Shown here: piece after piece, positions 9,093 to 51,458 of the stretch
Layout: each line of letters begins with the position of its first letter
Position numbering within the stretch: the stretch's first letter is position 1
DNA from: Mycolicibacterium komanii
Lineage (GTDB): Bacteria > Actinomycetota > Actinomycetes > Mycobacteriales > Mycobacteriaceae
Direction: 5' to 3'
NCBI RefSeq assembly: GCF_001050035.1
Contig: NZ_CVTA01000044.1
Span: forward strand, 234,581-298,580
Length of the DNA stretch: 64,000 nucleotides
Notes under the pieces: generated by a model
What the model was told of the DNA's origin: nothing
The model's input: the letters and a program-made list of their open reading frames with translations, nothing else
Database searches by the model: none
Translations under genes and position numbers: made by a program

Positions 9093-9099
9093 CCTACCG

Positions 9100-9423: not shown

Positions 9424-9465
9424 GCCGCGGTCTCCGCTCTTTGTGGTCGTCCCGATAATGAGCCG

Positions 9466-9867
9466 ATGACGTTCATCGGGCCGGCCGAAGACAGACAGCT
9501 CATCCGTGAGCGCCTCGAAATCTACAGCGACGCGGTCACCCGCAAGGATCTCGACGCGTATCTGGCGTGCTGGACCGAGGACGGACGTCGGACCGGCTCG
9601 GGCGGCGAGTGTCACGGCAAGGGCGAACTGCGCGACCACTGGCACGCCATCTTCACGACCATCGAGCAGATGGCGTTCTTCACCCAGATGGCGTCGCTGG
9701 CCGTGCGCGGCGACCGTGCGGACGCGCGCTCGTATTGCCTGGAGTTCATGCGGCTGCGCGATCAACCGGCGCGCCAGCTGGTCGGCGAGTATGTCGATGA
9801 ACTCGTACGCGTCGACGGGAACTGGCTGTTCGCCTCCCGCCACTACCGCGTGGCCGTGCCGCTCTAA
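9466..9867 (+). CDS. SnoaL/NTF2-like protein
   Basis: The 133-residue protein fits the NTF2-like fold: an N-terminal helix '[24 protein letters not shown]' (quoted in part), '[22 protein letters not shown]', and a final strand '[13 protein letters not shown]'. Members are small cone-shaped enzymes or binding proteins; the substrate is not predictable. It starts 42 bases from the divergent gene at 9423 and its stop overlaps the convergent yebC stop by four bases. Confidence 0.8.
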
Positions 9868-10622
9868 TCCTCGTTGTCGAGTTCGGCGGCGACTTCGTCG
9901 GAGATGTCGATGTTGGTGTAGACGTCCTGGACGTCGTCGAGGTCTTCGAGCGCGTCGACCAGCTTCATGATCTTGCGCGCGCCGTCGGCGTCCAGCGGTA
10001 CCGACACCGACGGCTCGAAACCGGCCTCGGCCGACTCGTAGTCGATGCCGGCGTCCTGCAGCGCGGTGCGCACCGCGACGAGGTCAGTTGGCTCGCAAAG
10101 GATCTCGAAGGAGTCGCCGAGGTCGTTGACGTCCTCGGCGCCGGCCTCGAGCACCGCCATCAGCACGTCGTCCTCGGTGAGGCCGTTCTTGTCGAGGGTG
10201 ATGACGCCCTTGCGAGAGAAGAGATAGGACACCGAACCGGGGTCGGCCATGTTGCCGCCGTTGCGGGTCATCGCGACGCGGACCTCGCCGGCCGCGCGGT
10301 TGCGGTTGTCGGTCAGGCATTCGATGAGCACCGCGACACCGTTGGGGCCGTAGCCCTCGTAGGTGATGTTCTGGTACTCGGCGCCGCCGGCTTCCTCACC
10401 GCTGCCGCGCTTGCGGGCCCGCTCGATGTTGTCGTTGGGCACCGACGACTTCTTGGCCTTCTGGATCGCGTCGTAGAGCGTCGGGTTGCCCGCCGGGTCG
10501 CCGCCGCCGGTGCGCGCGGCGACCTCGATGTTCTTGATCAGCTTGGCGAACATCTTGCCGCGGCGGGCGTCGATGACCGCTTTCTTGTGCTTGGTGGTGG
10601 CCCACTTGGAATGGCCGCTCAT
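9864..10622 (-). CDS. yebC: YebC/TACO1-family protein
   Basis: The 252-residue protein starts [14 protein letters not shown], the hallmark N-terminus of YebC, and contains '[21 protein letters not shown]'-type sequence (quoted in part) and '[19 protein letters not shown]'. YebC proteins are reported as transcription regulators and, more recently, as ribosome-associated factors easing stalls at proline-rich stretches. The frame stays open far upstream of the start, but that part reads antisense to the acyl-CoA dehydrogenase and is not coding. In many bacteria yebC lies beside ruvCAB, as it nearly does here. Confidence 0.95.
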
Positions 10623-10705
10623 GCAGGTAGTACCTCTCCGTGCGCTTTCGTGCGCCAAGTTCGTGCGCTGAGTCCGCCCGACGAGTCTACGTGGATGTTT
10701 GCGCC

Positions 10706-11140
10706 CTACCGAACCGCGTCGGGCGACGTCAGCGCGATGACGCGGTAGCCGACGGCGGCCGGCCAGCCGATGTGGCCGTGCACGTGCACCTGCAGCCACG
10801 TCGGCGCCCCAGACGGGTCGTCGGTGAACGTCGCGGCGGCGTCGACGACCGCACCCGTCTCGCCCGAGCCCGCCAGAACGACCGAGACCGACAGCGTCGG
10901 AGTGCCCAGCGCGGCCCGGTCGTACGGGAGGCTGTCCGGGATGAAGAACGACGCCGAGAAGTTCGGCGACCGAATGCCTCTGGGCGCGTTGGGCGCTCGG
11001 CGCAGCGCGAGGCCCGACACGATCGGTTTGCCGTCGAACCAGGCGGTGCCGGTGTACTCGGTGCGGCGCGCGTCTGCGCCGTTCGGGAGCTTGACCAGGG
11101 TGTCGATGCGCGGTTGCGGCTCGACTTCGACCATCGTCAT
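10706..11140 (-). CDS. hypothetical protein sharing a palindromic promoter with the acyl-CoA dehydrogenase
   Basis: The product is 144 residues from ATG 11140 ([11 protein letters not shown]), or 157 from GTG 11179. It is rich in beta-type sequence ('[18 protein letters not shown]', '[16 protein letters not shown]') and has no signal peptide or recognised domain. An AGGAC element about 10 bases upstream favours ATG 11140; the GTG would suit a near-leaderless transcript from the palindrome at 11188-11219. Its divergent pairing with an acyl-CoA dehydrogenase hints at lipid metabolism, but nothing more can be said. Confidence 0.5.
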
Positions 11141-11187
11141 CGCGGCGTTCCGTCCTACCGGCGCTGTTAGGTCTGCCACAATACTTC

Positions 11188-11219
11188 GCCGCTATCTTAC
11201 TCCGCAGTAAGATAGCGGC
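11188..11219. promoter_or_regulatory. perfect 14-bp inverted repeat (operator/divergent promoter)
   Basis: GCCGCTATCTTACT at 11188-11201 is exactly repeated in inverse at 11206-11219, with spacer CCGC. It ends one base before the ATG at 11220. Each arm contains a TAAGAT (-10 type TANNNT), on the plus strand at 11208-11213, seven bases from the ATG. That suggests a leaderless start for the acyl-CoA dehydrogenase and a symmetric promoter in the other direction. The TTACT-n4-AGTAA core is typical of TetR-family operators; the regulator is not in the window. Confidence 0.7.
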
Positions 11220-12431
11220 ATGTCCTTCTCGCTTGAGCTGTCCCCCGACCTCGTCCACGTCCGGGACTGGGTCCACGAGTTCGCCGCCGACGTCGTCCGT
11301 CCCGCCGCCGCGGAGTGGGACGAGCGCGAGGAGACCCCGTGGCCGATCATCCAGGAGGCGGCGAAGGTCGGCCTGTACTCGATGGAGTTCTTCGCCGAGC
11401 AGGCCGCCGAGCCGTCCGGCCTGGGCATGCTCGTCGCGTTCGAGGAGATGTTCTGGGGTGACGCGGGTATCGCGCTGTCGATCCTGGGCACCGGCCTGGC
11501 GGCGGCGTCGCTGGCCGCCAACGGCACCCGCGAGCAGATAGGTGAATGGGTTCCCCAGATGTTCGGCAGCGTGAACGAACCGAAGGTCGCGTCGTTCTGC
11601 TCGTCGGAACCCGGCGCCGGTTCCGATGTCGGCGCCATCCTCACCCGCGCCCGCTACGACGAGGCCAAGGACGAATGGGTGCTCAACGGCGTCAAGACCT
11701 GGGCCACCAACGGCGGTATCGCCGAGGTGCATATCGTAGTCGCGTCGGTGTATCCCGAACTCGGCACGCGCGGGCAGGCCACGTTCATCATCCCGCCGAA
11801 CACCCCCGGCTGCCGGCAGGGGCAGAAGTTCCTCAAGCACGGCATCCGCGCTTCGCACACCGCCGAGGTGCTGCTCGAGGACGTGCGCATCGCCGGCAAC
11901 CTGATCGTCGGCGGCAGGGACAAGTTCGAGGAGCGGATCGCGCGGGTGCGCGAGGGCAAGCGGGCCAAGAGCCAGGCCGCGCTGGCGACGTTCGAGCGCA
12001 CGCGGCCCACGGTCGGCGCGATGGCGGTCGGCGTCGCGCGCGCGGCCTACGAGTACGCGCTCGACTACGCCGGCCAGCGCGAGCAGTTCGGCAAGAAGAT
12101 CGGCGAATTCCAGGCCATCGCGTTCAAGCTGGCCGATATGAAGGCCCGCATCGACGCCGCCCGGCTGCTGGTCTGGCGGGCCGGCTGGATGGCACGCAAC
12201 GGCAAGCCGTTCGACAACGCCGAGGGTTCGATGGCCAAGCTGGTCGCCAGCGAGACCGCGGTGCACGTCACCGACGAGGCGATCCAGATCCTCGGCGGCA
12301 ACGGCTACACCCGCGAGTATCCCGTCGAGCGGATGCACCGCGACGCCAAGATCTTCACGATCTTCGAGGGCACCAGCGAAATTCAGCGCCTGGTGATCGG
12401 CCGCGCGGTCACCGGCCTCGAAATCCGCTAG
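11220..12431 (+). CDS. acyl-CoA dehydrogenase (FadE family)
   Basis: The 403-residue flavoenzyme introduces a 2,3-double bond in an acyl-CoA thioester. Visible signatures are '[14 protein letters not shown]' (substrate and FAD contact), 'TWATNGG', '[15 protein letters not shown]' and the C-terminal '[19 protein letters not shown]'. The catalytic base is expected at E383 in '[11 protein letters not shown]'. ATG 11220 abuts a perfect palindrome, so expression is probably controlled by a DNA-binding regulator. Chain-length specificity cannot be inferred. Confidence 0.93.
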
Positions 12432-12437
12432 CTGTCT

Positions 12438-12490
12438 GCGATTTGTGCACATTTGAGAGCGCTCACCGCTCCCCGATGTGCACAAGTCGC
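12438..12490. terminator. hairpin between convergent fadE-type gene and pdxT
   Basis: GCGATTTGTGCACAT at 12438-12452 pairs with 12476-12490 (15 base pairs, one T/C difference giving a G-U type pair on one strand). It lies between stops at 12431 and 12497, so it can serve both directions. The loop is 23 bases and there is no U-tract. Confidence 0.55.
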
Positions 12491-12496
12491 CCGGGA

Positions 12497-13081
12497 TTAG
12501 AGCATGTCGACGAACAGTTTGTGGATGCGACGATCGCCGGTCATCTCCGGATGGAAGGCCGTCGCGAGCCGTTTGCCCTGTCGCACCGCCACGATGTGAC
12601 CGGCGGCCTCGGCCAGCACCTCGACGTCGGGCCCGACGCGTTCGGCCCACGGTGCGCGGATGAACACGGCGTGCACCGGGCCGTCGACGCCGCCGAACGC
12701 CAGATCGTCTTCGAACGAGTTGACCTGACGACCAAAGGCATTGCGCCGCACCGTCATATCGATCGCCTTCAGCGGTGTGGCCTCGCGACCCGCCGCTCCG
12801 GCATCCAGGATCTCCGAGGCCAGCAGGATCATGCCCGCACACGAGCCGTACGCCGGCATGCCGTCGGCCAGCCGCGACCGCAGCGGTTCGAGCAGGTCGA
12901 GTTCGCGCAGCAGATGGCTCATCGCAGTGGACTCCCCGCCGGGGATCACCAGCGCGTCGACGGCCTCCAGTTCGCGGACCCGCCGCACCGTCGAGGCCTC
13001 CGCCCCGGCCTCGCGCAGCGCGGCCAGGTGTTCGCGCGTATCGCCCTGCAGCGCAAGGACACCGACGTGTGGAGTGCTCAC
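12497..13081 (-). CDS. pdxT: pyridoxal 5'-phosphate synthase glutaminase subunit PdxT
   Basis: PdxT hydrolyses glutamine and passes ammonia to PdxS for direct synthesis of PLP. The 194-residue class I amidotransferase has '[14 protein letters not shown]', nucleophile C81 in 'YGSCAGM' and the H177/E179 pair in 'AFHPEMTGD'. GTG 13081 gives the conserved start '[13 protein letters not shown]' and overlaps the tesB stop (GTGA). Its partner pdxS lies one gene upstream. Confidence 0.96.
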
Positions 13082-13917
13082 GGTTTGTAGTCGCGCTTGA
13101 AGCGGGTCAGCCCCTCTTGCATGACCGCCGCCACCATCTCGCCGTACTGGTTGAAGAGCTTGCCCTGGCACAGCGACCGGCCACCGGACGCCGACGGCGA
13201 GGACTGGTCGTAGAGCAGCCACTCGTCGGCGCGGAACGGGCGCATGAACCACATCGCGTGGTCGAGGGAGGCGACCTGCAGGTGCTTGCGCTCCTTCGGA
13301 TAGTTCACCTGCGCCGAGCCCAGCAGGGTCAGGTCGCTCATGTAGGCCAGCGCGCAGATGTGCAGCACCGGGTCGTCGGGCAGGGGGTCTCGGTGCCTGA
13401 ACCACACCTGCTGTTGAGATGCCTTGCCCGGCAGCTTGTTCAACGTCTCCCGCGGAATGATCCGCACGTCCCACTCGTCGAACTGGCGGAAGCTGGCGTC
13501 GTCGAACACCTCGCTGACCGACGCGTAGTTCGGAATCTCCTCGGGCGATGCCGCGACGGGCATCGCATCCTGGTGCTCGATACCGCTCTGGTCGGTCTGG
13601 AAGGACGCCGACATCGAAAAGATCGTCTCGCCGTGCTGGATCGCATTCACGCGACGCGTCACGAACGACCCGCCGTCACGCAGGCGTTCCACGATGTACA
13701 CCGTCGGCGCCTTGGCGTCCCCGGGGCGGAGGAAGTACCCGTGCAACGAGTGCACCTGGAACGCCGGATCGACTGTGCGCACCGCCGAAACCAGTGACTG
13801 CCCCGCGACGTGTCCGCCGAAAGTGCGCTGCAGGAAACCGGATTCGGGGCTGAACACGCTGCCCCGGTAGATGTTGACCTCGAGCTGTTCCAGGTCGAGG
13901 ATCTTTTCGATCGCCAT
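13078..13917 (-). CDS. tesB: acyl-CoA thioesterase II (TesB type)
   Basis: The 279-residue double-hotdog thioesterase hydrolyses acyl-CoA to free acid and CoA. It shows '[16 protein letters not shown]' and '[11 protein letters not shown]' in the first hotdog and the active-site aspartate motif '[12 protein letters not shown]' in the second. It sits between pdxS and pdxT with only a 9-base gap and a 4-base overlap. The same arrangement is known in M. tuberculosis (tesB2 between snzP and snoP), so co-transcription is conserved although no metabolic link is obvious. Confidence 0.93.
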
Positions 13918-38674: not shown

Positions 38675-39976
38675 GTGCGCGATCTTGTGACCGCCCCGTT
38701 CCGGCCCCGGACCTCCCCGCCCAACGTGGCGTCGGTGTTGAAGGTGATCCTGTGGCCGCTGGCGATCCTGTTCATCATTCACCGCAGCTACGTCCTGGCC
38801 ACCAACGGCTACATCACCGACGACTACGGGCCGGTGTACCGGGCGGTCGTCAACTTCAAAATGGGCTGGGACATCTACAACGAGCACTTCGACCACGTCG
38901 ACCCGCACTACCTCTATCCGCCGGGCGGCACGTTGTTGATGGCACCGTTCGGCTATCTGCCCGTCGACGCATCCCGGTACTGGTTCATCACGTTCAACAC
39001 GATCGCTATCGTGCTGGCCGCCTACTTCCTGGTCCGGCTGTTCGGCTTCGGCTTCCGTTCGGTCGCACTGCCCGCGCTGCTGGCCGCGATGTTCTGCACC
39101 GAAAGCGTGATCAACACACTGGTTTTCGGCAACATCAACGGATGCATCCTGCTGGCCGAGGTGTTGTTCTTCCGCTGGCTGCTGGACGGTAAACGCAACC
39201 ACGAATGGTCGGCGGGTGCGGCGATCGGATTGACCCTGGTGGTCAAACCGCTTCTGGCGCCGCTGGTGTTGCTGCCGCTGCTGAACCGGCAGTGGCGAGC
39301 GCTGGTGACCGCGGTCGCGGTGCCGTTGGCGTTCAACGTCGCGGCATGGCCGTTGATCAGCGACCCAATGAACTTCTTCACCCGTACGGTCCCCTACATT
39401 CTCACCACCCGCGACTACTTCAACAGCTCGATCGCCGGCAACGGTGTCTACTACGGCCTGCCGACCTGGCTGATCCTGTTGTTGCGCATCGCCTTTGCCG
39501 TCATCGCGGTGATCTCGCTGTGGCTGCTGTACAAGTACTACCGCACCCGCGACCCGCTGTTCTGGATGACGACGTCGTCCGGCGTGCTGCTGATCACCTC
39601 GTTCTTGGTGCTGTCGCTGGGGCAGGGCTACTACTCGATGATGCTGTTCCCATTCCTGATGACGGTGGTGCTGCCGAACTCGGTGCTGCGGAACTGGCCT
39701 GCGTGGCTGGCGATCTACGGGTTCATGAGCGCCGACCGCTGGCTGCTCGGGCACTGGCCGACGACCGGTCGGTTCCTCGAGTACATGAAGTTCACCTACG
39801 GGTGGGGCCTGATGCTGGTCGTCGTGTTCTCGGTGCTGTACTTCCGCTACCTGGACGCCAAGGCGGAAGGGCGTCTCGACGACGGAATCGACCCGACGTG
39901 GCTGAAGAAGGCGCCACCGTCGGATCCGGACGCTTCGGCGGAACCGGCACGGCCCGTCGCACCGCCGATCAGCTGA
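38675..39976 (+). CDS. aftC: alpha-(1->3)-arabinofuranosyltransferase AftC
   Basis: AftC introduces the alpha-1,3 branch points of arabinogalactan and lipoarabinomannan arabinan using decaprenyl-phosphoryl arabinose. The 433-residue polytopic GT-C enzyme has about ten transmembrane helices, an early aspartate pair 'NGYITDDYGPVYRAV' in the first periplasmic loop and 'PHYLYPPGGTLLMAPFGYLP'. The start is GTG 38675. It corresponds to Rv2673. The next gene in M. tuberculosis is msrB; here 11 kb intervenes. Confidence 0.93.
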   Translation: MRDLVTAPFRPRTSPPNVASVLKVILWPLAILFIIHRSYVLATNGYITDDYGPVYRAVVNFKMGWDIYNEHFDHVDPHYLYPPGGTLLMAPFGYLPVDASRYWFITFNTIAIVLAAYFLVRLFGFGFRSVALPALLAAMFCTESVINTLVFGNINGCILLAEVLFFRWLLDGKRNHEWSAGAAIGLTLVVKPLLAPLVLLPLLNRQWRALVTAVAVPLAFNVAAWPLISDPMNFFTRTVPYILTTRDYFNSSIAGNGVYYGLPTWLILLLRIAFAVIAVISLWLLYKYYRTRDPLFWMTTSSGVLLITSFLVLSLGQGYYSMMLFPFLMTVVLPNSVLRNWPAWLAIYGFMSADRWLLGHWPTTGRFLEYMKFTYGWGLMLVVVFSVLYFRYLDAKAEGRLDDGIDPTWLKKAPPSDPDASAEPARPVAPPIS

Positions 39977-40108
39977 TATCGGTTACGGCTCCGACAGTAT
40001 TTGCCAACGCAAGGTTCTTGCGGGCAGCACGCCCGCTATAACCAGTGCTGACGCGCCTTCGATCTCGTACGATTGATTCGCTCGCGGGGTCTGAAGGGGA
40101 GGCGCAAC

Positions 40109-41176
40109 ATGCCGAGAATCCCTCTAGACCCGCAGTCCATCACGGCGGAATGGTTGAGCGAGGTTCTCGAAGCCGACGTGCGGGTCTGCAAACTCGAGCA
40201 GTTCGGGATCGGCTATGGGCTTCTCGGTCGCCTCTATCGGGCCCATCTCGACGGCGACCCGGACCTGCCGCCGACGGTCGTGGTCAAGCTTCCAACGCTG
40301 GATACGATTGCGCGAACCAATCTTTGCGAAGACCTCGAGTTTTACCACCGGGAGGTCCGGTTCTACCAGGAAATCGGCCTCGCCAATCCGCTACCGCCCG
40401 CACGGCCGTACTTCGCGGCCATCGACGAGGCCACCCACGATTTCGTCCTGGTGCTCGAGGATCTGGGTCGGCTCCGCAACGTCGACCAGCTCGTCGGCTG
40501 CTCGGTCGCCGACGCTGAAACCGTCATCGACGCCATCGCCAACCACCACGCCTACTGGTGGGAGAGCGATCGCCTCGCGTCGCTGCCATGGCTGAAGGTA
40601 CACACCGATCCGCCCTTTCCCCAGGTGATCGTGAGCAACTACCACGCCGCCTGGCCGAAGTGCGTCGAGCGCGTGGGCTCTGAACTGACTCCGAAGATCC
40701 GTGATTACGGCGACCGCTTCGCGACGTTGATGCCGTGGTTCCTCGAGGAGGTCTCGCATCGACCCCAGACCTTCCTGCACGGAGATCTGCGCTTGGATCA
40801 GATGTTCTTCGCCGGGGACGCAGGGGATCCGCCGCTCACAGTGCTCGACTGGCAAGTCACGAATAGAGGTCGGGGCGGATTCGACGTCGGATACTTCCTC
40901 AGCCAGAGCCTGACCCCCGACACACGTCGTGGTTGCGAGGACGCGCTACTGGCTCGCTATCACGCTCGCCTTGCCGAGCACGGGATCGACTACCCGGCAG
41001 AACAATTGCGGCACGATTATCGCCTCGCGATCGCCTGGTGCTTTGTCTATCCCGTCATGGCCGAGGGGCGCATCGAGATCGTCAACGACCGCAATGAGCG
41101 CTTGGCGCGCGAGATGTTCCGCCGCGCCGTGGCGGCGCTGGAGGACCACGACGTGTTCTCTCTGGAGCCCGACTGA
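40109..41176 (+). CDS. APH/EcKinase-like phosphotransferase
   Basis: The 355-residue kinase-fold protein has the nucleotide-binding 'PPTVVVKLPT', the catalytic loop 'FLHGDLRLDQMFF' (catalytic D226) and the metal-binding 'VLDWQ'. At the usual Asn of HGDxxxxN the residue is Q231. Related proteins phosphorylate aminoglycosides, choline or small alcohols; the target is unknown. ATG 40109 is preceded by AAGGGGAGG with 6-base spacing. It ends two bases before the giant cyclase gene, so the two are very probably co-translated. Confidence 0.85.
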   Translation: MPRIPLDPQSITAEWLSEVLEADVRVCKLEQFGIGYGLLGRLYRAHLDGDPDLPPTVVVKLPTLDTIARTNLCEDLEFYHREVRFYQEIGLANPLPPARPYFAAIDEATHDFVLVLEDLGRLRNVDQLVGCSVADAETVIDAIANHHAYWWESDRLASLPWLKVHTDPPFPQVIVSNYHAAWPKCVERVGSELTPKIRDYGDRFATLMPWFLEEVSHRPQTFLHGDLRLDQMFFAGDAGDPPLTVLDWQVTNRGRGGFDVGYFLSQSLTPDTRRGCEDALLARYHARLAEHGIDYPAEQLRHDYRLAIAWCFVYPVMAEGRIEIVNDRNERLAREMFRRAVAALEDHDVFSLEPD

Positions 41177-41178
41177 CC

Positions 41179-44100
41179 ATGGCTGAGGACCGCCGTACCT
41201 GCGCCTCCTGCGGGACGGCGAACGAGGAGGACGCGCGCTTCTGCGAGGGTTGCGGCGGCTCACTCGCACGTGTCTGCACGACGTGCGGCTTGGAAGCGAG
41301 AGCGACCGCTCGGTTCTGCCGTGGCTGTGGCGCCCCGCTCGACGAATTGGCCACCCCCGCACCGGAGCAGATTGCGGGTCCTGCGCGTAAGACCGTCACG
41401 GTGATGTTCGCCGATCTGGCCGGGTCGACCACCTTCGAGGAACGGGTCGACGCCGAGACGGCACGCGAGGTGATCGGCCGCTACCACGACCTGCTGCGGT
41501 CGACCGCGCAGCGACACCGCGCGGGCGTCACCAAATACATCGGCGACGGCTTCATGGCCGTCTGGGGTGTTCCCGAGATCGGTCCCGAGGACGCGCTGCG
41601 CGCCGTCGACGCCGCGGCCGAATTGCAGGACCGGTTCGTCGACCTCGCCGCCCAGGTCGCCGAGACGCACCGCACCGAGTTGGCGCTGCGCGTTGCCGTC
41701 AACACCGGTGAGGTCGTCGTCGGCGCGGGTGACGCCGACCTGGTGGGCGACGCGCTCAACGTCGGCGCTCGCCTGGAGGCCGAATGCCCGCGCGGGCGGG
41801 TGGTGGTCGGTGAGGAGACCTGGCGGGCGACACGAGGGCGATACGGCTACGAATCGCTCGGCCAAGTGCAGGTGAAGGGCCGCCACGCGCCGGTTGCGGT
41901 GTACCAGTGGGCCGGAAGGCATTCGGATGTCGCGGACGCCGCGCCGTTCGTCGGCCGGTCGCAAGAAGTGCGGCGGCTTCAAGGCGTCCTCGACGACGCG
42001 ATCGCGGGGCGTGCGGCCCGGCTTGTCACCGTGATCGGCGACCCCGGCGTCGGCAAGAGCCGCCTGGCGACCGAATTCCTTGGTGCTCAATCGGATGCGT
42101 GCGTTGTTCAAACTCGATGTGCCGTCGAGGGATCGGTCGCGCTTGCGCCGATTGTCGAGATGTTGCGGGCCCGGGATCTCGAATCCGACATTCCGGCAGG
42201 AGTCTCGGAGCGAGATCGTCTGCTGCGCGACCTCAAAGGCCTCGCGACCGGCGTACCGGGGTCGGTCGAAGAGAACTTCTGGGCGCTGCGCAGATTCGTC
42301 GAGGTGCTGGCGTGGAGCGGTCCAGTTGTGTTCACACTCGACGACATTCAATGGGCCGACACCTTGCTGTTGGACTTCATCGAGCACCTCGTCGAGTGGG
42401 TCAAGGACGTGCCGGTGCTCGTGCTGGCGTTGGCACGGCCCGAGCTGCGCGAGATTCGGCCTGACTTGGTCGCCGCCAGCCGCTGGGTCGCCGACGCGCT
42501 CCACCTCGACGGCCTCGACGCGGGGGCGACGGCAGAGCTTGCGGCCAAGGTGTTGGGCGCCACCGAACTCCCCGCCGAACTGCTGCATCGCCTGCCGGCA
42601 TCCACCGGCGGCAATCCCCTGTTCGTCCGGGAATTCGTCGGAATGCTCGCCCACGACGGCGTACTGGTGGAGCACCCGAACGGCTGGCGACTGACCATCG
42701 ACGTCGACGCCATCACCATTCCGCCGACGATTCACGCCCTGCTCGCGTCGCGGCTGGAACGGCTCGACACCGGCGACCGACGGATCCTCGAGACCGCGTC
42801 TGTGGTCGGCAGCGACTTCTCCGTCGGCACCGTTCGAGCGCTCGCCGGCGGTCATGCGGATGCGATCAAGTTGTCGCTCAACCGACTAAGGCGTCTCGAA
42901 CTCGCTCAACCCACGGGGACGTACGTCGGTGATGAGGCCGTCTGGCGATTCCACCATGTGCTCATCCGCGATGTGGCCTACCGGCGGTTACTGAAGTCCG
43001 AGCGCGCAGAACTGCACGAACGCCTGGCCGACTGGGTCGAATCAGGCGGCGCCAGTGTGGCATTCGAGGCTGACGAGATGATCGCCCGCCATCTGGAGGC
43101 CGCGCACACCTATCTGAGGGAACTGGGCGCCTTCGACGAGCACACGAACGATCTGGCTCTGCGTGCCGCCCGTCATTATTCGGCAGCCGCGCGACGCGCA
43201 CTCGACCGCGACGAGTTGGTCTCCGCCGGCACCCAGGCCGCGCGGGGCGCCGCTCTTGCCGGCGCAGACGAGGGCGTAAACGCCGAGCTCTTGCTGACGG
43301 GGTGCGAGGCACTTCTGTCCGCAGGCGACGTGACCTCCGCCGCCGCCCTCGTCGAGGATCTCGAGCGCATCGCGGGCGACGCGTTGGCGCCATGGGCGAC
43401 GTGCTATCGATGCCAGTTCGGTGTGTACACCGACCCGGAGCGGCTGTTGGAATACGACGCGCTGCTCCAGGGCGCCATCGACGAATTCGCCCGTCGCGCA
43501 GACCCAGCGGGCCTCGCCAAGGCGCACCGGGTACGGGCGAGCGCGCGGCTGCGATTGGGACGGGTCGGCGACGGCGAGGTCGACCTGTTCGAGGCGCTGA
43601 TCGCCGCTCGACAGAGCAGAGACCACCGACAGATCACCGCTGCCTTGGGCGCAGCGCCGGGCGCGGCGCTGTGGGGGCCGAGCCCGGTGCCGAAAGCCGG
43701 CGGCCGGTGTTTGGACGTGGTTCGAATGCAGCGGATGACGACGGCTGCACCCTCCCTCGAGGCGACGTCGTTGCGACATCTGGCCGTGCTGGAACTGCTG
43801 CGCGGGCGACCGGACAAGGCCCGCAAGATGCTCGGCGAGGCTCGTCAGATCGTCGCCGACCTCGGTCTGCGGCACGGGTTGATGGAAACGGAGTTGTTCG
43901 CCGGGATCATCGAGTCGATGAGCGGCGACCCCGTCGCTGCTGAACCGCACTTCCGCACGGCGTTGGAAGGTTTGGATGCGTTGGGCGTCGGCGCCGACGC
44001 GGGCCTGGCCGCTGCCTTGCTCGCGAGATCGCTTCTCGCGCAGGGCCGCATCGACGAAGCCGACCGCTATGCGACCGAGAGCGAGCGGCTGGCAGGCCAC

Positions 44101-47100
44101 AACCTCAAGACGGCGATCGCGTGGCGCGCGGTGCGAGCCGAGATCCTCTCCGCACAAGGGTGCCACGATGAGGCGACTGTGATGGCCCGGGATGCGGTCG
44201 CGGTGGCCAGCGGGACCGACATCGTGCTCGACCACGCCGAGGCCTGCCTGGCACTGGGTCGTGTGCTGGACCAGGCGCGGGATTCGAGCGGGGCCAGGTC
44301 AGCCCGAACCGATGCCAGAGCGCTCTACGCGGCGAAGGAGGTGTCGATATCGGTTGGACTCGACGACGAACCCGTAGTCGCACGGTCGGAGGAAGCTGCC
44401 AGCGGAGCACTGAGTCACGCAGCGGAACGCGCGCCCGCTGCCGCCCGCCGGCTCGCGGTCGACAACGATTCCTGCCGACTGCTGCCCATGTTCATCCAGG
44501 CGACCAAGGACGGCGATGTCGAGGGTGCCCTCGCCTGGTTCTCAGAGCAGTTCGTCTACGACGACCGGCGGCGACTGAGCGGCGACCCTGTCGTCGGACT
44601 GGACGCGATGCGGACTGCCCTGGAGCGTGTTCATGAGCAGTACACGCAGTTCGAGTTCCGCGTCTTGGCGGTCCGCGGCCGTCATCTGCATCTTCTATGG
44701 AGTCGCTGGGCCGACGACAACGGCAATACCGCCACGACGCTGTACGTCAACGAAACCGGAGACGACGGGCGCATTCTCCACCACATTCGGTTCGACGAGG
44801 ACGATTTCGAGAGCGCCTACCGAGAGCTTGAACGCCGGTTCTACGCCGGAGAAGGTGAGGCCTTCGCCGACGTCGGCGCCGTCGGAACGGAATATATCGT
44901 GGCGCTCACTGCGGGTGATCTGAACCGTGCGTTCAATGAACTCAGTTCCCCAGGGTTGCGGTTCGAGAACCGTTCCCGGATCGCGTTCCCCGATCCCGTT
45001 GTGAGTGATGCGAAGACAAGTTGGGGTCAACTCAACGCAATGATGCTGTCGACGCGGACGTGGGCGTCGGTCGGTTTCTGGCTCTCTTCTCGCTGCCTCA
45101 TTGCCCTTATCGAGCGGGAGGCGATCGGCTCAGACAACGAACGCTATTCGTGGGCATGGCTGATCGTGAGCGAGATCAGCGGGGGCGTTTTCGTATCCAG
45201 CTGCGTGTTCGACGTCGATGACGAGGACGCGGCGTTCGCCTACGCCGAGGAGCGAGTGCGGGCGACCACCAGCCGGCTTGCCGTGGAAAACCAAGCATCC
45301 CGGTCATTGCCGCGCTTCGTCGAAGCGCTGCGGTCACATGATGTCGACGGTGTCGTCGCGGCCTATGCGGACGAGTTCGTCTACGACGATCGCAGACGAC
45401 TCAGCGGCGCGCCGATCGTCGGACGCGACGCAATGCGGGCCGCGGTCGCCCGAATCTGTGATCAGTACACGCAATTCGACGTTCGCGTGTTGGCTGTTCG
45501 CGGCGACCGGCTTTTCATGGCACGGAGTCGCTGGGCCGACGAGTCCGACAACGCGACGGAATACCTCCATGTCACCGAGGTGAACGACGCCGGCCAGGTC
45601 GTCTACGACGGTCGGTTCGATGCCCACGATTTCGAAGGCGCCAACCGAGAACTGGAACGCCGCTACTACGCCGGGGAAGGCGCCGCTTATGCGGACGCAG
45701 GGGCTGTGACGACGGATATCACAAGCTCACTGAATCGAAAAGACTATGACCGTGTATTCGGTGAACTCTTCGCTTCGGACTTCCGACTCGAGAATCATTC
45801 TCACGCGGCATTTCCCGAACTTTCCGCCAGCGAATTCCGTGGCACCTTGGAAGAGCTCGATGGCATCGTTGCTTCGTCGCGTGTGTGGACTCCAGCTATC
45901 AAATGGCTGTCACCGAATTGGCATGTCTTCCTTTTCGCGCGCGAAGCTGCGGGACTCGATGACGAGAAATACGAGTGGTCCAGCATCCACACCGCCGAGA
46001 TTCGAGGCGGACGACTGGCGTCGATATGCCAGTTCGAAATCGATGATGAGGCCGCTGCATTCGCCTATGTCCAGGAACGAGTGCGGGCAACCGAAAGTCG
46101 GCTTGCGGTGACGAATCGCGCTAGCCAGGCGGCGGATGTCGCGTGGCGCGCGTTCCAAGTCGGCGATCTCCGCGCGGCCATGGCCGGGTGCTCGGATTCG
46201 TTCGTCTATGACGACCGGCGGGGGGTGAGCGGTAATGCGATCGAGGGCCTCGACGGGTTGCGAAACGCCTCAGTTCGGATTCTCGATCTATATCCCCATT
46301 CCGAATGGCGCACCTTGGCAGTACGCGGTGAACGACTCGAGCTTGGCTGGAGTCGGTGGTGGGATGACGCGGGTAACGAAACGAGCGGTTTCCACGTCCT
46401 CGAGACCGACAGCGACGGCTCGACCATCTATCACGGCCGGTTCGACGAGGACGATTTCGAAGCTGCGCTTCGTGAACTCGAGCGGAGGTACTACGCCGGC
46501 GAAGGTACGGCGTTCGCTGAAGGCGGCGCGGTCTCCACGGCGACGTTCGTGGCTATCAACCGCGGCGACTACGACAGGGTGGTCGAAGAACTCAGCACTC
46601 CAGCGATGCGCATCGAGAACCGTTCGCGCTCTGGACTTCCCGACCGGTCAGCCGACGATCTACGCTCCGGCTGGGGCCACTTGGACGCTTTGGTCTCCTC
46701 TTCGCGGAGCTGGCCCTCGGTCGTCTGCTGGTTGTCACCGCAATGGAGCGTCAGCCGCGTCGAACGCGAGGCGACCGGTGACGACGGCGAGCTGTACACC
46801 TGGACATTCGTGCTCGTCGCCGAAGTGCTAGATGGTCGCACGAATTCCCTGTGCCAGTTCGACATCGAGGACGAGGAGGCCGCTTTCGCGTACGCCGACG
46901 AGCGGGTTCGCGCCGCCAGCAGCCGGCTGGCAGTCAAGAATAGCGCTACTGACGTCGTCGAAGCCGGCTGGCAAGCAATGCGGAGTCACGACGTCGAAGG
47001 CCTCGTCGCCACCTACGCCGACAGTTTCGTCTACGTCGATCGACGCCGTCTGAGCGGCGACCCCATCGTTGGTCGCGACGCGATACGCGCAGCGATCCAG

Positions 47101-50100
47101 AGGGTCCTCGATCAATACAGCCGATTCGAGATCCGCGTGCTGGCAGTACGGGGCGACCGCCTGGCGATGGGGCGCAGTCGCTGGTGGGACGAGGCGGGGA
47201 ACGAGACGACACAGCTTCATGTTTCCGAAATCGGCGACGACGGTTTGTGCGTCTACGACTGCCGCTTCGACGGAGACGACTTCGAGGGCGCGTATCGAGA
47301 GCTCGAACAGCGCTACTTCGCCGGAGAGGGAGCGGCGTTCGCCGAGACAGGCGCTATCGGAACCGAGATGACCCTCGCGTGGAATCGCGGAGATTTCGAC
47401 CGGGTGTTCGGGGAATTCTTGGCGCCCGAATTCCGGATCGAATCGCGGACGCAGTCGGTTTTCGGCGATCGTTCGGCAGCCGAGCTTCGGTCCACTTACG
47501 AAGAACTTTGGGAGATGGTCGCCTCGACGCAGGTTTGGATCTCGTCGGCGTACTGGCTGTCCCCGACGGTCGGGATAGGCCGCAACGAACGCGAAGCAAT
47601 CGGCCATGACGGTGAGACGTACACGTGGACAAAGCTTTACGTTTTCACTCTTCGCGACAACCGCTTCACATCGATGTGCGAGTTCGCTGTGGACGACGAG
47701 GCCGCGGCGTTCGCGTATGCCGAAGGCTGCGTCCGCGCGACGACGAGTCGGCTGGCAATCACCAATCGGGCGTGCGAAGTAGGAGATCGAGTCCTCCAGG
47801 CGAGCGAGAGCGGGGACGTCGACACCGTCGTCGCCAATTTCGCCGAGCACTTCGTCTATGACGATCATCGGCGCCTCAGCGGCGACCCCGTCACAGATCG
47901 TGTGGAACTCAGGGCGGCCGTGCAACGAATGCTCGGGCAGTACAACCACTTCGACGCCCGCGTGCTGGCTGTTCGCGGCGAGCGCCTTCAACTCGCCCAT
48001 ACCCGATGGTCCGACGACGCCGGAAATGAGACGTCATATCTCCTCGTGATCGAGCTCGACGCCGATGGGCGTATCGCTTTACAGGCCAGCTTCGACGAAG
48101 GCGATTTCGACAGCGCATATCGCGAACTCGAACAGCGTTACTACGCCGGCGAAGGCGCAGCGCACAGCGATGCGGGCACGACGACGACCGAATTCGCGAT
48201 CGCTATCAATGCACGCGACCTGGACCGTGCGTTCGATGACCTCATCGCACCAGACTTCCGTGTCGAAAATCATTCGCGCTCCGGTTTTCCCGAGCGCTCG
48301 GCTAAGGGGCTGAAGGCGACTGTCGCCGAACTGCAATCGATGTTCGATCGCGTGCGCTCCTGGAACTCAGCCGTGTGCTGGTTGTCGCCGTTGCACGCAA
48401 TCGGCCTCAACGAACGCGAGGCGATCGGTCACGATGGTGAACGGTTCACGTGGTCACGGCTTTTCTTGATGGAGGTCAAGCAGGGTCGGCTCACGTACTT
48501 GTGCATATACGAACTGGATGACGAAGAAGCCGCATTCGCGCACGCCGAAGAGCTCGCCCATGAGGCTGCGACTCGCTTGCCGGTCACGAATATGGCCACC
48601 CGGACGTTTCTCGTCGGAGGGCAGGCTGCGAACGCGCACGACGTCGACGCGATGGTCCGACAGTATTCCGAGCACTTCGAATACGACGATCGGCGAAGGC
48701 TGGCGGGAAACCCGCTACCCGATGTGCGCAGCGGCGCGGAACGCATCTTGGCGCAGTACAACCAGTTCGAGGGACGCACACTGGCCGTCCGCGGTGACCG
48801 GCTGCATCTGTCTTGGAGTCGCTGGTGGACTGACGCCGGATACGAAACGGCCCACCTGATTCTGCAGGAGGTCGATGACAGCGGGCGGATCACCTATGAA
48901 GGTCGTTTCGACGAGGACGACTTCGAGCGCGCCTATCGCGAACTCACGCGCCGTTACTGCGTAGGTGAAGGTGCAGCGGTCGCTGAGGCAGAGGCGACAC
49001 TCGCGGAGTATCCGATCGGCTTCACGAACGGAGACATCGACGGCGTCTTCGATCGCCTTACTGCTCCGGGATTACGTGTCGACGACCGGTCGCGCTCGCT
49101 TTTCGGCGAACGTTCCGTCGGCGAGTTCCGGTCAACCTATGACGAACTGCTCGCCAGGACCTCCTCACTGCGGGTGTGGCACGCCGCGGTCAGTTGGCTG
49201 TCACCGGCGGTGGTTGTCGCCCGGTTTGAACAGACTGCGGTCGGAGCGGATGGCGAGCGGTTCGCATGGACGCACATCGACGTCATCGAGATCCGTGGCG
49301 GGCGGTTCAGCTCGGTCTGCTTGTTCGAAACCGACGATGAGGAAGCTGCATTCGCGTATGCCGAGGAGTTGGTGCGGGCTGCGAACACCCGGCTCACAGT
49401 GAACAATCTGGCTACCCGTACCGTCGACAACCTCTGGAGGGCGTTGCAAGCACGGGATGCCGATGCGGCAGCCGAGCTCGCCGCCGAGTCATTTAGTTTC
49501 GGTGATCATCGCCGCTTGCACGGAAATCCCGTCGGAGACACGCGCACCGCGCTCGCACGCATCCTCGAGGACTACACGTCCTTCGAGACGCGCACGCTCG
49601 CGGCACGCGGTGAGCGCCTCCACCTCGGTTGGACCCGCTGGTCTAACGACGACGGTTTCGAGGTTCACTATCTCACCGTTCATGAGGTCGATGACGCCGG
49701 ACGGATTCTGTATCACGGTCGCTTCGATGAAGACGATTTCGATGGCGCCTACCGAGAACTCACCCGTCGCTATTGCGCTGGAGAAGCCAAAGATTTCAGC
49801 CGCTCGGCGACCATCGTCACCGAGTGGATGTCAGCGCTCAACGCGGGCGATTTCGACCGAGGGTTCAGAGACCTGGTCACGGAGGACTTTCGCGTCGAGA
49901 ACCGTTCTCGCACGGCGTTTCCGGACCGTTCCGCGGCGGAACTGCGAGCAAGCCTCGAGGACTTGCGGTCCATGATGACGTCGATTCACCAATGGGACGT
50001 CGCCGAATGTTGGGTATCACCCAACTGTGTCGTCACTCGCAATGAAAGACAAGCCGTCGGCAAGGACGGTGAGCAGTACACCTGGTCCAGCATCGATGTC

Positions 50101-51048
50101 GGCGAGATCCGCGACGGCCGGGCCGCGCTCGTCTGCCGATTCGACGTCGACGACGAGGAGGCGGCGTTCGCGTACGCCGAGGAGCTCGCCCATACCGTTC
50201 ACAGCCGATTCAGACTGACCAACCGGTCCTGCGAGACCGTCGCCGACCTCCAGAATGCCCTGTGCGCCGGAGATCTCGAGGGAGGTATCGGCTGCTACGC
50301 GAACCCATCCGTGTACGAAGATCGACGCCGGCTCAGCGGGGATCCCATTCGCAACGCCGCAGGGCTGCGGCTGGCCGGGGAACGGATCCTGGCTCAGTAC
50401 AGCCACTTCCAGTGGCGAACACTCGCCGTCCGCGGTAATTCGATGAGCATGCACGCCAGCGTCTGGTCGGACGACTCCGGCAATGCAACCTCCTATCTGC
50501 ACGTCTACGAGGTCGATGACACTGGACATTTCATCTACGAGGGCCGCTTCGACGAGGACGACTTCGAGGGCGCCTACCGAGAACTCACACGCCGCTACTG
50601 CGCGGGTGAAGAGGAGGCGGTCGCCGAAGGCATAGCGCATACTGCGGAGTACCTGATGGCCATCAACCGACGAGAATGGGATCGGGTGTTCGGCGAGCTG
50701 ACGGATCCGGCAATCCAAGCCGTGAGCCGATCCAGTTCCGGCTTTCCCGATCGCTCGGCCGCCGAACTGCGCGCCAGCTACGAGCACCTGTGCGCAATGG
50801 TCGATTCGATACGTTCCTGGCACGCAGCGGAACATTGGCTGTCGCCGACGGTGGCGGTGACGCTTCACGAACGCGAAGCAATCGGCCATGACGGCGAGCG
50901 GTACGAGTGGAGCCGACTGATCGTGGGCGAGTTCCACGGTGGGCTCACCAGGCACATATGCGAATTCGACATGGACGACGAGGACTCCGCCTTCGCGTAC
51001 GCGGAGGAGCTTGTGCGCCGTGCCGGCACTAGTAGCGTGGAGTCATGA
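41179..51048 (+). CDS. giant zinc-ribbon, adenylate cyclase, STAND ATPase protein with 16 NTF2-like domains
   Basis: This single 3289-residue frame has no recognised counterpart in my memory at this size. Residues 8-50 hold four CxxC pairs (C8/C11, C22/C25, C33/C36, C47/C50), two zinc ribbons. Residues 71-245 are a class III cyclase with metal ligands D79 and D123, purine-specifying K119 and D187 (ATP type), and transition-state N194 and R198. An AAA/STAND ATPase follows with Walker A 'GDPGVGKS' (287-294) and Walker B 'FTLDDIQWAD' (385-394). Helical, probably TPR-like sequence runs to about 1090. Residues 1091-3289 are eight units of 272-280 residues, each two NTF2/SnoaL-like halves. The protein has no signal or membrane segment and is strongly acidic in the repeats. 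It overlaps msrB (ATGA). I infer a cytoplasmic ligand-responsive cAMP-producing switch; the NTF2 array may be the sensor. Confidence 0.88.
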   Translation: MAEDRRTCASCGTANEEDARFCEGCGGSLARVCTTCGLEARATARFCRGCGAPLDELATPAPEQIAGPARKTVTVMFADLAGSTTFEERVDAETAREVIGRYHDLLRSTAQRHRAGVTKYIGDGFMAVWGVPEIGPEDALRAVDAAAELQDRFVDLAAQVAETHRTELALRVAVNTGEVVVGAGDADLVGDALNVGARLEAECPRGRVVVGEETWRATRGRYGYESLGQVQVKGRHAPVAVYQWAGRHSDVADAAPFVGRSQEVRRLQGVLDDAIAGRAARLVTVIGDPGVGKSRLATEFLGAQSDACVVQTRCAVEGSVALAPIVEMLRARDLESDIPAGVSERDRLLRDLKGLATGVPGSVEENFWALRRFVEVLAWSGPVVFTLDDIQWADTLLLDFIEHLVEWVKDVPVLVLALARPELREIRPDLVAASRWVADALHLDGLDAGATAELAAKVLGATELPAELLHRLPASTGGNPLFVREFVGMLAHDGVLVEHPNGWRLTIDVDAITIPPTIHALLASRLERLDTGDRRILETASVVGSDFSVGTVRALAGGHADAIKLSLNRLRRLELAQPTGTYVGDEAVWRFHHVLIRDVAYRRLLKSERAELHERLADWVESGGASVAFEADEMIARHLEAAHTYLRELGAFDEHTNDLALRAARHYSAAARRALDRDELVSAGTQAARGAALAGADEGVNAELLLTGCEALLSAGDVTSAAALVEDLERIAGDALAPWATCYRCQFGVYTDPERLLEYDALLQGAIDEFARRADPAGLAKAHRVRASARLRLGRVGDGEVDLFEALIAARQSRDHRQITAALGAAPGAALWGPSPVPKAGGRCLDVVRMQRMTTAAPSLEATSLRHLAVLELLRGRPDKARKMLGEARQIVADLGLRHGLMETELFAGIIESMSGDPVAAEPHFRTALEGLDALGVGADAGLAAALLARSLLAQGRIDEADRYATESERLAGHNLKTAIAWRAVRAEILSAQGCHDEATVMARDAVAVASGTDIVLDHAEACLALGRVLDQARDSSGARSARTDARALYAAKEVSISVGLDDEPVVARSEEAASGALSHAAERAPAAARRLAVDNDSCRLLPMFIQATKDGDVEGALAWFSEQFVYDDRRRLSGDPVVGLDAMRTALERVHEQYTQFEFRVLAVRGRHLHLLWSRWADDNGNTATTLYVNETGDDGRILHHIRFDEDDFESAYRELERRFYAGEGEAFADVGAVGTEYIVALTAGDLNRAFNELSSPGLRFENRSRIAFPDPVVSDAKTSWGQLNAMMLSTRTWASVGFWLSSRCLIALIEREAIGSDNERYSWAWLIVSEISGGVFVSSCVFDVDDEDAAFAYAEERVRATTSRLAVENQASRSLPRFVEALRSHDVDGVVAAYADEFVYDDRRRLSGAPIVGRDAMRAAVARICDQYTQFDVRVLAVRGDRLFMARSRWADESDNATEYLHVTEVNDAGQVVYDGRFDAHDFEGANRELERRYYAGEGAAYADAGAVTTDITSSLNRKDYDRVFGELFASDFRLENHSHAAFPELSASEFRGTLEELDGIVASSRVWTPAIKWLSPNWHVFLFAREAAGLDDEKYEWSSIHTAEIRGGRLASICQFEIDDEAAAFAYVQERVRATESRLAVTNRASQAADVAWRAFQVGDLRAAMAGCSDSFVYDDRRGVSGNAIEGLDGLRNASVRILDLYPHSEWRTLAVRGERLELGWSRWWDDAGNETSGFHVLETDSDGSTIYHGRFDEDDFEAALRELERRYYAGEGTAFAEGGAVSTATFVAINRGDYDRVVEELSTPAMRIENRSRSGLPDRSADDLRSGWGHLDALVSSSRSWPSVVCWLSPQWSVSRVEREATGDDGELYTWTFVLVAEVLDGRTNSLCQFDIEDEEAAFAYADERVRAASSRLAVKNSATDVVEAGWQAMRSHDVEGLVATYADSFVYVDRRRLSGDPIVGRDAIRAAIQRVLDQYSRFEIRVLAVRGDRLAMGRSRWWDEAGNETTQLHVSEIGDDGLCVYDCRFDGDDFEGAYRELEQRYFAGEGAAFAETGAIGTEMTLAWNRGDFDRVFGEFLAPEFRIESRTQSVFGDRSAAELRSTYEELWEMVASTQVWISSAYWLSPTVGIGRNEREAIGHDGETYTWTKLYVFTLRDNRFTSMCEFAVDDEAAAFAYAEGCVRATTSRLAITNRACEVGDRVLQASESGDVDTVVANFAEHFVYDDHRRLSGDPVTDRVELRAAVQRMLGQYNHFDARVLAVRGERLQLAHTRWSDDAGNETSYLLVIELDADGRIALQASFDEGDFDSAYRELEQRYYAGEGAAHSDAGTTTTEFAIAINARDLDRAFDDLIAPDFRVENHSRSGFPERSAKGLKATVAELQSMFDRVRSWNSAVCWLSPLHAIGLNEREAIGHDGERFTWSRLFLMEVKQGRLTYLCIYELDDEEAAFAHAEELAHEAATRLPVTNMATRTFLVGGQAANAHDVDAMVRQYSEHFEYDDRRRLAGNPLPDVRSGAERILAQYNQFEGRTLAVRGDRLHLSWSRWWTDAGYETAHLILQEVDDSGRITYEGRFDEDDFERAYRELTRRYCVGEGAAVAEAEATLAEYPIGFTNGDIDGVFDRLTAPGLRVDDRSRSLFGERSVGEFRSTYDELLARTSSLRVWHAAVSWLSPAVVVARFEQTAVGADGERFAWTHIDVIEIRGGRFSSVCLFETDDEEAAFAYAEELVRAANTRLTVNNLATRTVDNLWRALQARDADAAAELAAESFSFGDHRRLHGNPVGDTRTALARILEDYTSFETRTLAARGERLHLGWTRWSNDDGFEVHYLTVHEVDDAGRILYHGRFDEDDFDGAYRELTRRYCAGEAKDFSRSATIVTEWMSALNAGDFDRGFRDLVTEDFRVENRSRTAFPDRSAAELRASLEDLRSMMTSIHQWDVAECWVSPNCVVTRNERQAVGKDGEQYTWSSIDVGEIRDGRAALVCRFDVDDEEAAFAYAEELAHTVHSRFRLTNRSCETVADLQNALCAGDLEGGIGCYANPSVYEDRRRLSGDPIRNAAGLRLAGERILAQYSHFQWRTLAVRGNSMSMHASVWSDDSGNATSYLHVYEVDDTGHFIYEGRFDEDDFEGAYRELTRRYCAGEEEAVAEGIAHTAEYLMAINRREWDRVFGELTDPAIQAVSRSSSGFPDRSAAELRASYEHLCAMVDSIRSWHAAEHWLSPTVAVTLHEREAIGHDGERYEWSRLIVGEFHGGLTRHICEFDMDDEDSAFAYAEELVRRAGTSSVES
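44449..51045 (+). repeat. eight tandem protein-coding units of about 825 bp
   Basis: Units begin at the arginine of an 'S/T-R-L-x-V-x-N' motif: 44449, 45274, 46099, 46924, 47749, 48574, 49390 and 50206. Spacing is exactly 825 bases for units 1-5 and 816 for units 6 and 7; unit 8 ends at the stop. Half A of each unit has 'FVYDDRRRLSGDP' then 'LAVRGDRL' then 'RFDEDDFEGAYREL'; half B has 'FENRSR-x-xFP' then 'WLSP' then 'FDVDDEEAAFAYAEE'. Units 1-5 end half A with RRYYAGEG-type sequence, units 6-8 with TRRYCAGE, so the array contains two subgroups. DNA identity between units is far from complete, so the units are old. Confidence 0.9.
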
Positions 51049-51458
51049 CCACACCGGCTCCCAAACTGCAGCTGACCGATGACGAGTGGCGCAAGAAGCT
51101 GACCCCCGAGGAGTTCCACGTCCTGCGCGAGGCCGGCACCGAGCGTCCCTTCACCGGCGAGTACACCGACACCAAGACTGAGGGCGTCTACGAGTGCCGC
51201 GCCTGCGGCGCCGAGCTGTTCCGCAGCACCGAGAAATTCGAATCGCACTGCGGCTGGCCGTCGTTCTTCGATCCCGCCGATTCCGACGCCGTCATCCTGC
51301 GCACCGACGATTCGCTCGGGATGCACCGCGTCGAGGTGCTCTGCGCCAACTGCCACAGCCACCTGGGCCACGTCTTCGAGGGCGAGGGCTACCCCACCCC
51401 GACCGACCAGCGCTACTGCATCAACTCGATCTCGCTGCGGCTCAAGCCGACCTCCTGA
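51045..51458 (+). CDS. msrB: peptide-methionine (R)-S-oxide reductase MsrB
   Basis: MsrB repairs methionine-R-sulfoxide in proteins. The 137-residue enzyme has zinc ligands C51/C54 and C101/C104, the conserved 'ESHCGWPSFFD' and catalytic C126 in 'RYCINS'. Its ATG overlaps the TGA of the giant cyclase gene by four bases, so it is translated at least partly from that operon. It corresponds to Rv2674. Confidence 0.96.
   Translation: MTTPAPKLQLTDDEWRKKLTPEEFHVLREAGTERPFTGEYTDTKTEGVYECRACGAELFRSTEKFESHCGWPSFFDPADSDAVILRTDDSLGMHRVEVLCANCHSHLGHVFEGEGYPTPTDQRYCINSISLRLKPTS

Follow-up and report, generated by a model that had tools for sequence, protein, structure and literature searches.

A giant mycobacterial cyclase/STAND-type ATPase gene with a mosaic array of paired NTF2-like domains and a coupled predicted small-molecule kinase gene

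The window analysed in this study, a 64,000-nucleotide stretch of Mycolicibacterium komanii DNA (contig NZ_CVTA01000044.1, positions 234,581 to 298,580), contains a giant gene whose predicted 3289-residue product carries a C-terminal array of eight units, each composed of two NTF2/SnoaL domains (designated a and b). The array is preceded by zinc ribbons, a class III nucleotide cyclase, a STAND-type ATPase and a TPR region, and a gene of the EcKL type (ecdysteroid-kinase-like, PF02958) lies directly upstream (Table 1). An earlier note, made from the sequence of the window, had proposed a single uninterrupted gene with 16 NTF2-like domains in eight units, and both points were borne out. The order of domains given in that note (zinc ribbon, cyclase and ATPase, followed by the array) also holds, but the TPR region had escaped it; similarly, its account of the gene itself stands, while the coupled EcKL gene and the exchange of units between near-identical genes had been overlooked. 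Neither of the two outcomes that the note gave as refuting its claim was encountered: the predicted fold is NTF2-like, and the gene is likewise open in named isolates. The note further suggested that the array may be a multivalent platform for ligands or effectors that would control the output of cyclic AMP, which is a tentative reading here as well. Related loci (L) and proteins (P) are referred to below by our own numbers.

The units, of approximately 275 residues each, extend from residue 1091 to the C-terminus. Unit 4 was modelled singly with AlphaFold2 (pLDDT 94.3, pTM 0.91), and the fold of the seven other units is assigned by alignment to it. One unit is predicted as a single rigid body, compared with a pTM of 0.60 (at pLDDT 90.8) for a model of two units. 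Both halves of the modelled unit match ketosteroid-isomerase (KSI)-like structures in the PDB, and the best structural matches of the unit and its halves include binders of steroids, polyketides and designed ligands. NTF2-like or SnoaL_2 profiles were matched (E ≤ 0.01) by 14 of 16 a domains and 7 of 14 b domains. The cone-shaped alpha+beta fold of the model, together with these profile matches, places the domains among predicted NTF2-like/SnoaL_2 domains, as the note had claimed. In contrast to the structural comparison, a PDB sequence search with the b halves returned no significant chain (one NTF2-like row, E 1.1).

The N-terminal region has the features of a signalling protein. The cyclase domain (73.2 bits with its Pfam model), when aligned with 2w01 and 3r5g, retains all six catalytic residues: D79 and D123, which we take to be the two metal-binding aspartates, K119 and D187, presumably the substrate pair (and, as a Lys/Asp pair, presumably of the ATP type), and N194 and R198, the assumed transition-state pair. 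The P-loop AAA_16 domain (79.9 bits against a cut-off of 32.6) contains a Walker A motif (GDPGVGKS, residue 287) and a Walker B motif (VVFTLDDIQWAD, residue 383), and lies between an effector domain and repeats, the arrangement of a predicted STAND ATPase. The peak 19-residue mean hydropathy of the protein (1.64, at residue 1326) falls within an NTF2 domain. No LuxR or helix-turn-helix (HTH) family is present in the Pfam list of the protein up to E 1, and the score for the TOMM kinase/cyclase fusion model (TIGR03903), 161.8 bits, is below the curated cut-off of 705.75. A constant front of about 1080 residues (the N-part) precedes the arrays across the family. Its least conserved portion is the stretch immediately before unit 1 (44035-44442, residues 953-1088), which is 79-82% identical to the four isolates compared below, versus 90-99% elsewhere in the N-part.

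At E ≤ 1e-3 a search with the array revealed 230 proteins, and the best 120 of them were listed; since only candidates with the most words in common were scored in the protein searches, the size of the family is a lower bound. The 118 proteins counted comprise that of the window and 117 relatives, with P0116, P0119 and P0121 (hybrid or BTAD-type) excluded. Where an organism was given among the matches listed, it was mostly Mycobacterium or Mycolicibacterium, with a few others (e.g. Acidimicrobiaceae). The number of NTF2 domains is even in 110 of the 118 proteins, and a and b strictly alternate in 115. The 105 proteins combining an even number with an N-part of more than 900 residues have arrays of 3 to 12 units (13, 15, 20, 22, 10, 12, 5, 4, 3 and 1 proteins, respectively). 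The main exception to a-b pairing is an extra leading a domain (aababab), found in L010, L026, P0094, P0107 and P0114. An open (ab)8 gene is also present in the named isolates L002 and L004, and (ab)n genes in others, while P0002-P0005 likewise carry 16 domains. At two loci the gene is damaged: the N-part of L009 is split across two frames (6754-8292 and 8042-13312), and at L028, where neither an N-part nor EcKL is matched, remnants of the array are all that is left, which is apparently decay in some species. A search with a single unit gave 163 proteins; none of the 120 matches listed, many of which are located on short contigs, is clearly an ancestor that stands alone.

Comparison of these genes indicates that the arrays have gained, lost and replaced whole units as well as individual a or b domains, i.e. 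that they are mosaics formed by exchange and kept under purifying selection. The N-part of the window is 92.3-92.9% identical to those of the isolates L001-L004, and the best-matching units are 53-97% identical. The number of synonymous substitutions per site (dS), as a plain NG86 estimate with no confidence limits, amounts to 0.32-0.43 in the N-part, 0.19-0.39 in the neighbouring aftC gene and 0.07-1.83 in the units, with a ratio of nonsynonymous to synonymous divergence (omega) of 0.09-0.31 in every unit compared. In 32 domain-sized stretches of the N-part, compared with the four isolates, the proportion of synonymous differences (pS) is 0.17-0.42 and identity is 79-99%; in 62 stretches of the array (two further ones are gaps) the values are 0.03-0.73 and 42-99%, these identities being taken from a collinear alignment in which displaced units score as divergent, while the separate best-match comparison ignores position. 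Some units keep one half and have the other replaced, as in L004, whose a4 domain is 92% and b4 domain 51% identical to that of the window. Here, identity drops at the a-b linker helix near residue 2037, and the next boundary (b4-a5) has no sharp edge. Replaced domains remain within their a or b class. When five genes were compared in all 20 ordered pairs, 31 of 160 a domains and 72 of 160 b domains had no match of 65% or more, and therefore the b domains change more than the a domains. The mildest case is the closest relative, L003 (units 86-97% identical, one whole unit absent), and P0002 is nearly uniform in comparison with the window (85-92%); thus, not every relative shows the mosaic in such a comparison.

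The same phenomenon is observed among near-identical genes. All eight protein pairs whose N-parts are at least 97% identical include two or more domains below 75% (3/14, 2/12, 3/14, 6/16, 2/10, 12/18, 2/10 and 10/16 domains per pair, some of these representing gains or losses of whole units). P0052 and P0053, with N-parts 99.7% identical, are 93-100% identical in all domains except one a domain (53%) and one b domain (54%), and P0037 has one whole unit more. The outgroup protein P0022 matches the a3 domain of P0052 at 96% in a collinear position, its best match to a3 of P0037 being 53%, which shows that P0052 keeps the older a3 and that the replacement took place on the P0037/P0053 side. Between the two proteins named M. 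alsense, P0062 and P0084, the difference is a b-a piece that one has gained or the other has lost. The reverse pattern was found for P0030 and P0032, whose N-parts are 91% identical and whose units 2-6 are almost identical, with unit 1 lower than the rest; moreover, unit 7 of P0011 and unit 5 of P0028 are 94% identical, though their N-parts are only 80% identical.

Two other sources of the divergence were considered and rejected. Recent gene conversion inside the array of the window is not consistent with its units, which are only 44-56% identical to each other in protein and whose linkers are not homogenised at synonymous codons; internal homogenisation is therefore not the source of the mosaic. 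Point-wise positive selection is also rejected as the main cause, since dS climbs together with dN and omega stays within the low range given above.

The EcKL gene (PF02958: E 1.8e-14, 54.2 bits against a cut-off of 22) carries the motif HGDLRLDQ in the window and in all 19 loci examined, and LDWQ in 20 of 20 sequences. The profile match, combined with the HGD and DW motifs, identifies its product as a putative small-molecule kinase. By sequence its nearest solved relatives are weak ones (E 0.005-0.009), namely a putative acyl-CoA dehydrogenase entry and 4-hydroxytryptamine kinase. Translation may begin at the ATG at 40109 rather than at the TTG at 40073, since four distant homologues (L005, L007, L008 and L009) align only from residue 13. 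An EcKL homologue directly precedes the N-part in all 21 related loci that have an N-part (10 of 10 and 11 of 12 loci, the twelfth being L028), and the ATG of the cyclase gene abuts or overlaps the end of the EcKL gene in 20 of 20 sequences checked. The genes that we take to be aftC and hemQ (Pfam matches GT87 and Chlor_dismutase, respectively) both flank the pair in the window, as they do at 10 of the 21 loci. In eight loci (L005, L007-L010, L025-L027) no aftC was present in the fetched DNA, and thus the two genes remain neighbours where the genomic context differs. In the window aftC (38675-39973) is 94-97% and hemQ 95-98% identical to the genes of L001-L004, which are named Mycobacterium isolates. 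Downstream, a 137-residue open reading frame (ORF; 51045-51458, plus strand), presumably msrB-like, overlaps the stop codon of the array gene by four bases. In this arrangement, the EcKL gene, the array gene and the ORF appear to be translationally coupled in the window. A scan of positions 39900-41300 for a sigma-70 promoter or terminator found nothing. A putative fusion of EcKL and cyclase (P0248) was rejected, since its sequence leaves the EcKL frame ahead of the cyclase. Between the isolates EcKL is 84-90% identical (dS 0.40-0.83), and is thus more diverged than aftC (95-98%, dS 0.19-0.39); for this reason it may be exchanged, or be adapting, together with the array.

Table 1. Features of the array gene and its surroundings, with related loci of a second class
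Feature	Position	Strand	Basis or remarks
EcKL-type small-molecule kinase gene (predicted)	40073..41176	+	PF02958 match, motifs; directly upstream
Whole gene: zinc ribbon-class III cyclase-STAND-type ATPase-TPR-(NTF2a-NTF2b)8, 3289 residues	41179..51048	+	single open frame, ATG start
Double zinc ribbon, residues 8-54	41200..41340	+	four CxxCG at 8, 22, 33, 47
Class III nucleotide cyclase, residues 71-237	41389..41889	+	Pfam; alignment to 2w01, 3r5g (CyaB)
AAA_16 (STAND-type) ATPase core, residues 256-415	41944..42423	+	Pfam; Walker A/B
TPR_12 stretch, residues 861-932, within the region joining ATPase and array	43759..43974	+	Pfam
Unit 1	44449..45273	+	a 44449-44853, b 44854-45273
Unit 2	45274..46098	+	a 45274-45678, b 45679-46098
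Unit 3	46099..46923	+	a 46099-46503, b 46504-46923
Unit 4, the modelled unit	46924..47748	+	a 46924-47328, b 47329-47748
Unit 5	47749..48573	+	a 47749-48153, b 48154-48573
Unit 6	48574..49389	+	a 48574-48969, b 48970-49389
Unit 7, without counterpart in the close relative L003	49390..50205	+	a 49390-49785, b 49786-50205
Unit 8 and short tail	50206..51045	+	a 50206-50610, b 50611-51030
Second-class loci L011-L016	genomes of L003, L004, L008, L008, L001 and L006, respectively		BTAD-like front, cyclase, ATPase, NTF2 array

Related NTF2 arrays are also carried by a second class of giant frames (3150-5260 residues), found in the genomes of L001, L003, L004, L006 and L008. In five of the six fetched frames, those with an uncut start, BTAD-like and cyclase sequence comes first, as read from the N-terminal sequence; for the related P0116, Pfam lists both BTAD and cyclase. 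The N-parts of L012 and L015 are 94% identical and the units of L012 47-76%, i.e. the same pattern of a constant front and diverged units recurs in this class. Weaker matches were located in frames of 3719 and 2759 residues in the genomes of L002 and L010.

An effector front, an ATPase switch and a repeat-type sensor behind them argue for a STAND receptor. The interpretation that we favour, tentatively and at somewhat less than an even chance, is that the gene encodes an adenylyl cyclase receptor of the STAND type, whose array for sensing small molecules is cassette-variable and which works together with EcKL. Such a receptor would probably be soluble, with the eight rigid a-b pairs as its sensing part, each pair offering KSI-type pockets, the ligands of which would most likely be small molecules of a hydrophobic or aromatic kind. 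Binding of a ligand would be signalled through the TPR region to the ATPase, where ATP exchange would assemble or re-orient the N-terminal cyclases, leading to the formation of dimers that produce cyclic AMP (cAMP). EcKL would probably phosphorylate the same class of molecule, either inactivating it or making the sensed form. KSI-type cones often bind hydrophobic small molecules, and several complexes of this kind are among the structural matches; such pockets, together with the coupled EcKL gene, point to small molecules. Renewal of the array, in which whole units or individual a or b domains are exchanged, gained or lost, would provide strain-specific sensing behind a constant signalling front, and domain exchange within classes, purifying selection and a constant front are indeed expected if each domain contributes a specificity. 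It is possible, though on balance doubtful, that single NTF2 domains are interchangeable ligand-recognition modules exchanged between strains, placed on a constant cAMP-signalling STAND core with a dedicated small-molecule kinase, and that strain-specific combinations are renewed by domain swaps and not by point mutation. Since P0052 and P0053 are natural alleles differing in one a and one b domain, the link between domain and specificity is directly testable.

Several observations weigh against this interpretation. Weaker constraint alone predicts a diverged array behind a conserved front; however, it leaves the synonymous differences unexplained, and the synonymous divergence of the units beyond that of the N-part indicates that constraint is not merely relaxed. 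P0037, P0052 and P0053 may come from metagenomes, and their source tags (lgn, jgi and ena) make chimaeric assemblies possible for these three, while the exchange results for L001-L004 rest on named isolates. The breakpoint at the linker helix is a single case, and synonymous codons of the linkers are no more conserved than those elsewhere; linker helices might nevertheless be the usual points of exchange. The varying residues lie on both faces of the strands (judged by strand position, with strand letters shifted by one in places). Finally, the gene is patchy across genomes: units (E ≤ 1e-25) are present in 18 of 198 genomes drawn from the genus of L003 and in 4 of 201 drawn from its family, all four being among the 18.

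An unlikely alternative, although the strongest of those considered, is a sensor of a conflict system, whose array would recognise macromolecules of phages or competitors and whose cyclase would signal a protective or abortive response, the exchange reflecting an arms race. The STAND-type layout, as in other STAND defence proteins, domain exchange beside a constant signalling part and the patchy occurrence all agree with such a role. Sensors diversified by diversity-generating retroelements (DGRs) and linked to STAND/NACHT defences are described (PMC10907252). The cyclase domain matches the Pycsar cyclase (PycC) models of PADLOC (best E 1.1e-13), but the match is limited to the shared class III cyclase domain, and neither EcKL nor unit 4 has a PADLOC match at E ≤ 0.01. 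The position between aftC-like and hemQ-like housekeeping genes (in the window and at 10 of the 21 loci), with no evident defence island, as well as the EcKL gene and the KSI-like pockets suggestive of small molecules, also speak against this role. Among the adjoining genes (EcKL and the 137-residue ORF) there is no cyclic-nucleotide effector gene of the Pycsar type.

We consider it a little less probable still that the array is a structural tail, in which NTF2 pairs serve for oligomerisation or spacing, the mosaic is a by-product of recombination between repeats and nothing is sensed. Purifying selection in all of the units compared, replacements that preserve the a or b class and the low mutual identity of the units of the window, which speaks against internal homogenisation, all argue against this explanation.

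It is improbable that the pairs are active enzymes, similar to Lsd19/MonB or KSI, carried on one chain and merely regulated by the front. The top whole-unit structural matches are two-domain polyether epoxide hydrolases, i.e. Lsd19 (4rzm, E 1.4e-12) and MonBI/MonBII. In addition, the a domains have an aspartate, D39, at the position of KSI residue 38, presumably the catalytic aspartate (the KSI matches being weak, E 0.15-1.1), and it is conserved in 56 of 58 units. However, at KSI position about 15, which we take to be that of the oxyanion tyrosine, the commonest residues are L, F, A and V. The Asp-Arg-Asp set of limonene-epoxide hydrolase (LEH), presumably its catalytic residues, is replaced in the a domains by W/R 84, R 86 and G/A 113 (the alignment with 5aif being weak, E 0.0095), and the b domains have no conserved aspartate at the aligned catalytic positions. 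Moreover, the domains are placed differently from those of Lsd19.

An artefact of assembly or annotation (a gene that is really several, or a repeat wrongly collapsed or expanded), for which the repeat nature of the gene and the damaged loci L009 and L028 could be cited, has a negligible probability, given that the gene is open in named isolates, that other proteins also have 16 domains and that the units of the window are so dissimilar.

If the array senses ligands, it represents a bacterial receptor repertoire made by swapping whole pocket domains, and would suggest what some of the many unexplained mycobacterial cyclases respond to. STAND-type cyclases are already known, but no description was found of one that combines NTF2 domains arrayed in pairs with a coupled small-molecule kinase and with exchange of one domain at a time. 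Deposited relatives share the architecture, with 3-12 units; the names they bear are automatic ones ('nuclear transport factor 2 family protein', 'AAA family ATPase'), and most bear none. The earlier note knew of no described protein of this type, and this is uncontradicted by a full-text literature search (preprints and most subscription papers being outside its coverage), which found no description of the architecture, as is also true of the available parts of PMC3388012 and PMC7159879; the note had nevertheless overlooked the deposited family.

With Lsd19 and MonBI/MonBII, its best whole-unit fold matches, a unit shares two KSI/LEH-like domains in a chain of about 275 residues; these, however, are enzymes with a single pair, their domain placement differs (root mean square deviation of 11.7 over 220 aligned residues), and the sequence identity is 14%. 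In fungal NLRs a constant NTPase part is combined with variable repeats of other types, whereas here NTF2 domains or units are replaced. The Mclx proteins (Rv0386, Rv1358 and Rv2488c) have the structure cyclase-ATPase-LuxR, are predicted to be soluble and are nearly exclusive to mycobacteria (PMC4452763). Like the protein described in this study, they have a class III cyclase with an AAA/NB-ARC ATPase behind it, but they end in a LuxR HTH domain, in place of which we find an NTF2 array, with zinc ribbons in front. Sigma factors of the ECF41 and ECF56 groups (SigJ, SigG1) use one fused SnoaL_2 domain as a regulatory part (PMC7730460). Here, too, C-terminal SnoaL_2 domains are fused to a signalling core; however, there are 16 of them, in a/b pairs, and the core is a cyclase-ATPase instead of a sigma factor. 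No reverse transcriptase was detected among the six neighbouring genes of the window that were scanned, no wider search having been made. The DGR-diversified STAND/NACHT sensors (PMC10907252) also join a recognition part that changes rapidly to an NTPase signalling part that stays constant, but are diversified by point hypermutation, while in the arrays described here whole NTF2 domains or units are replaced.
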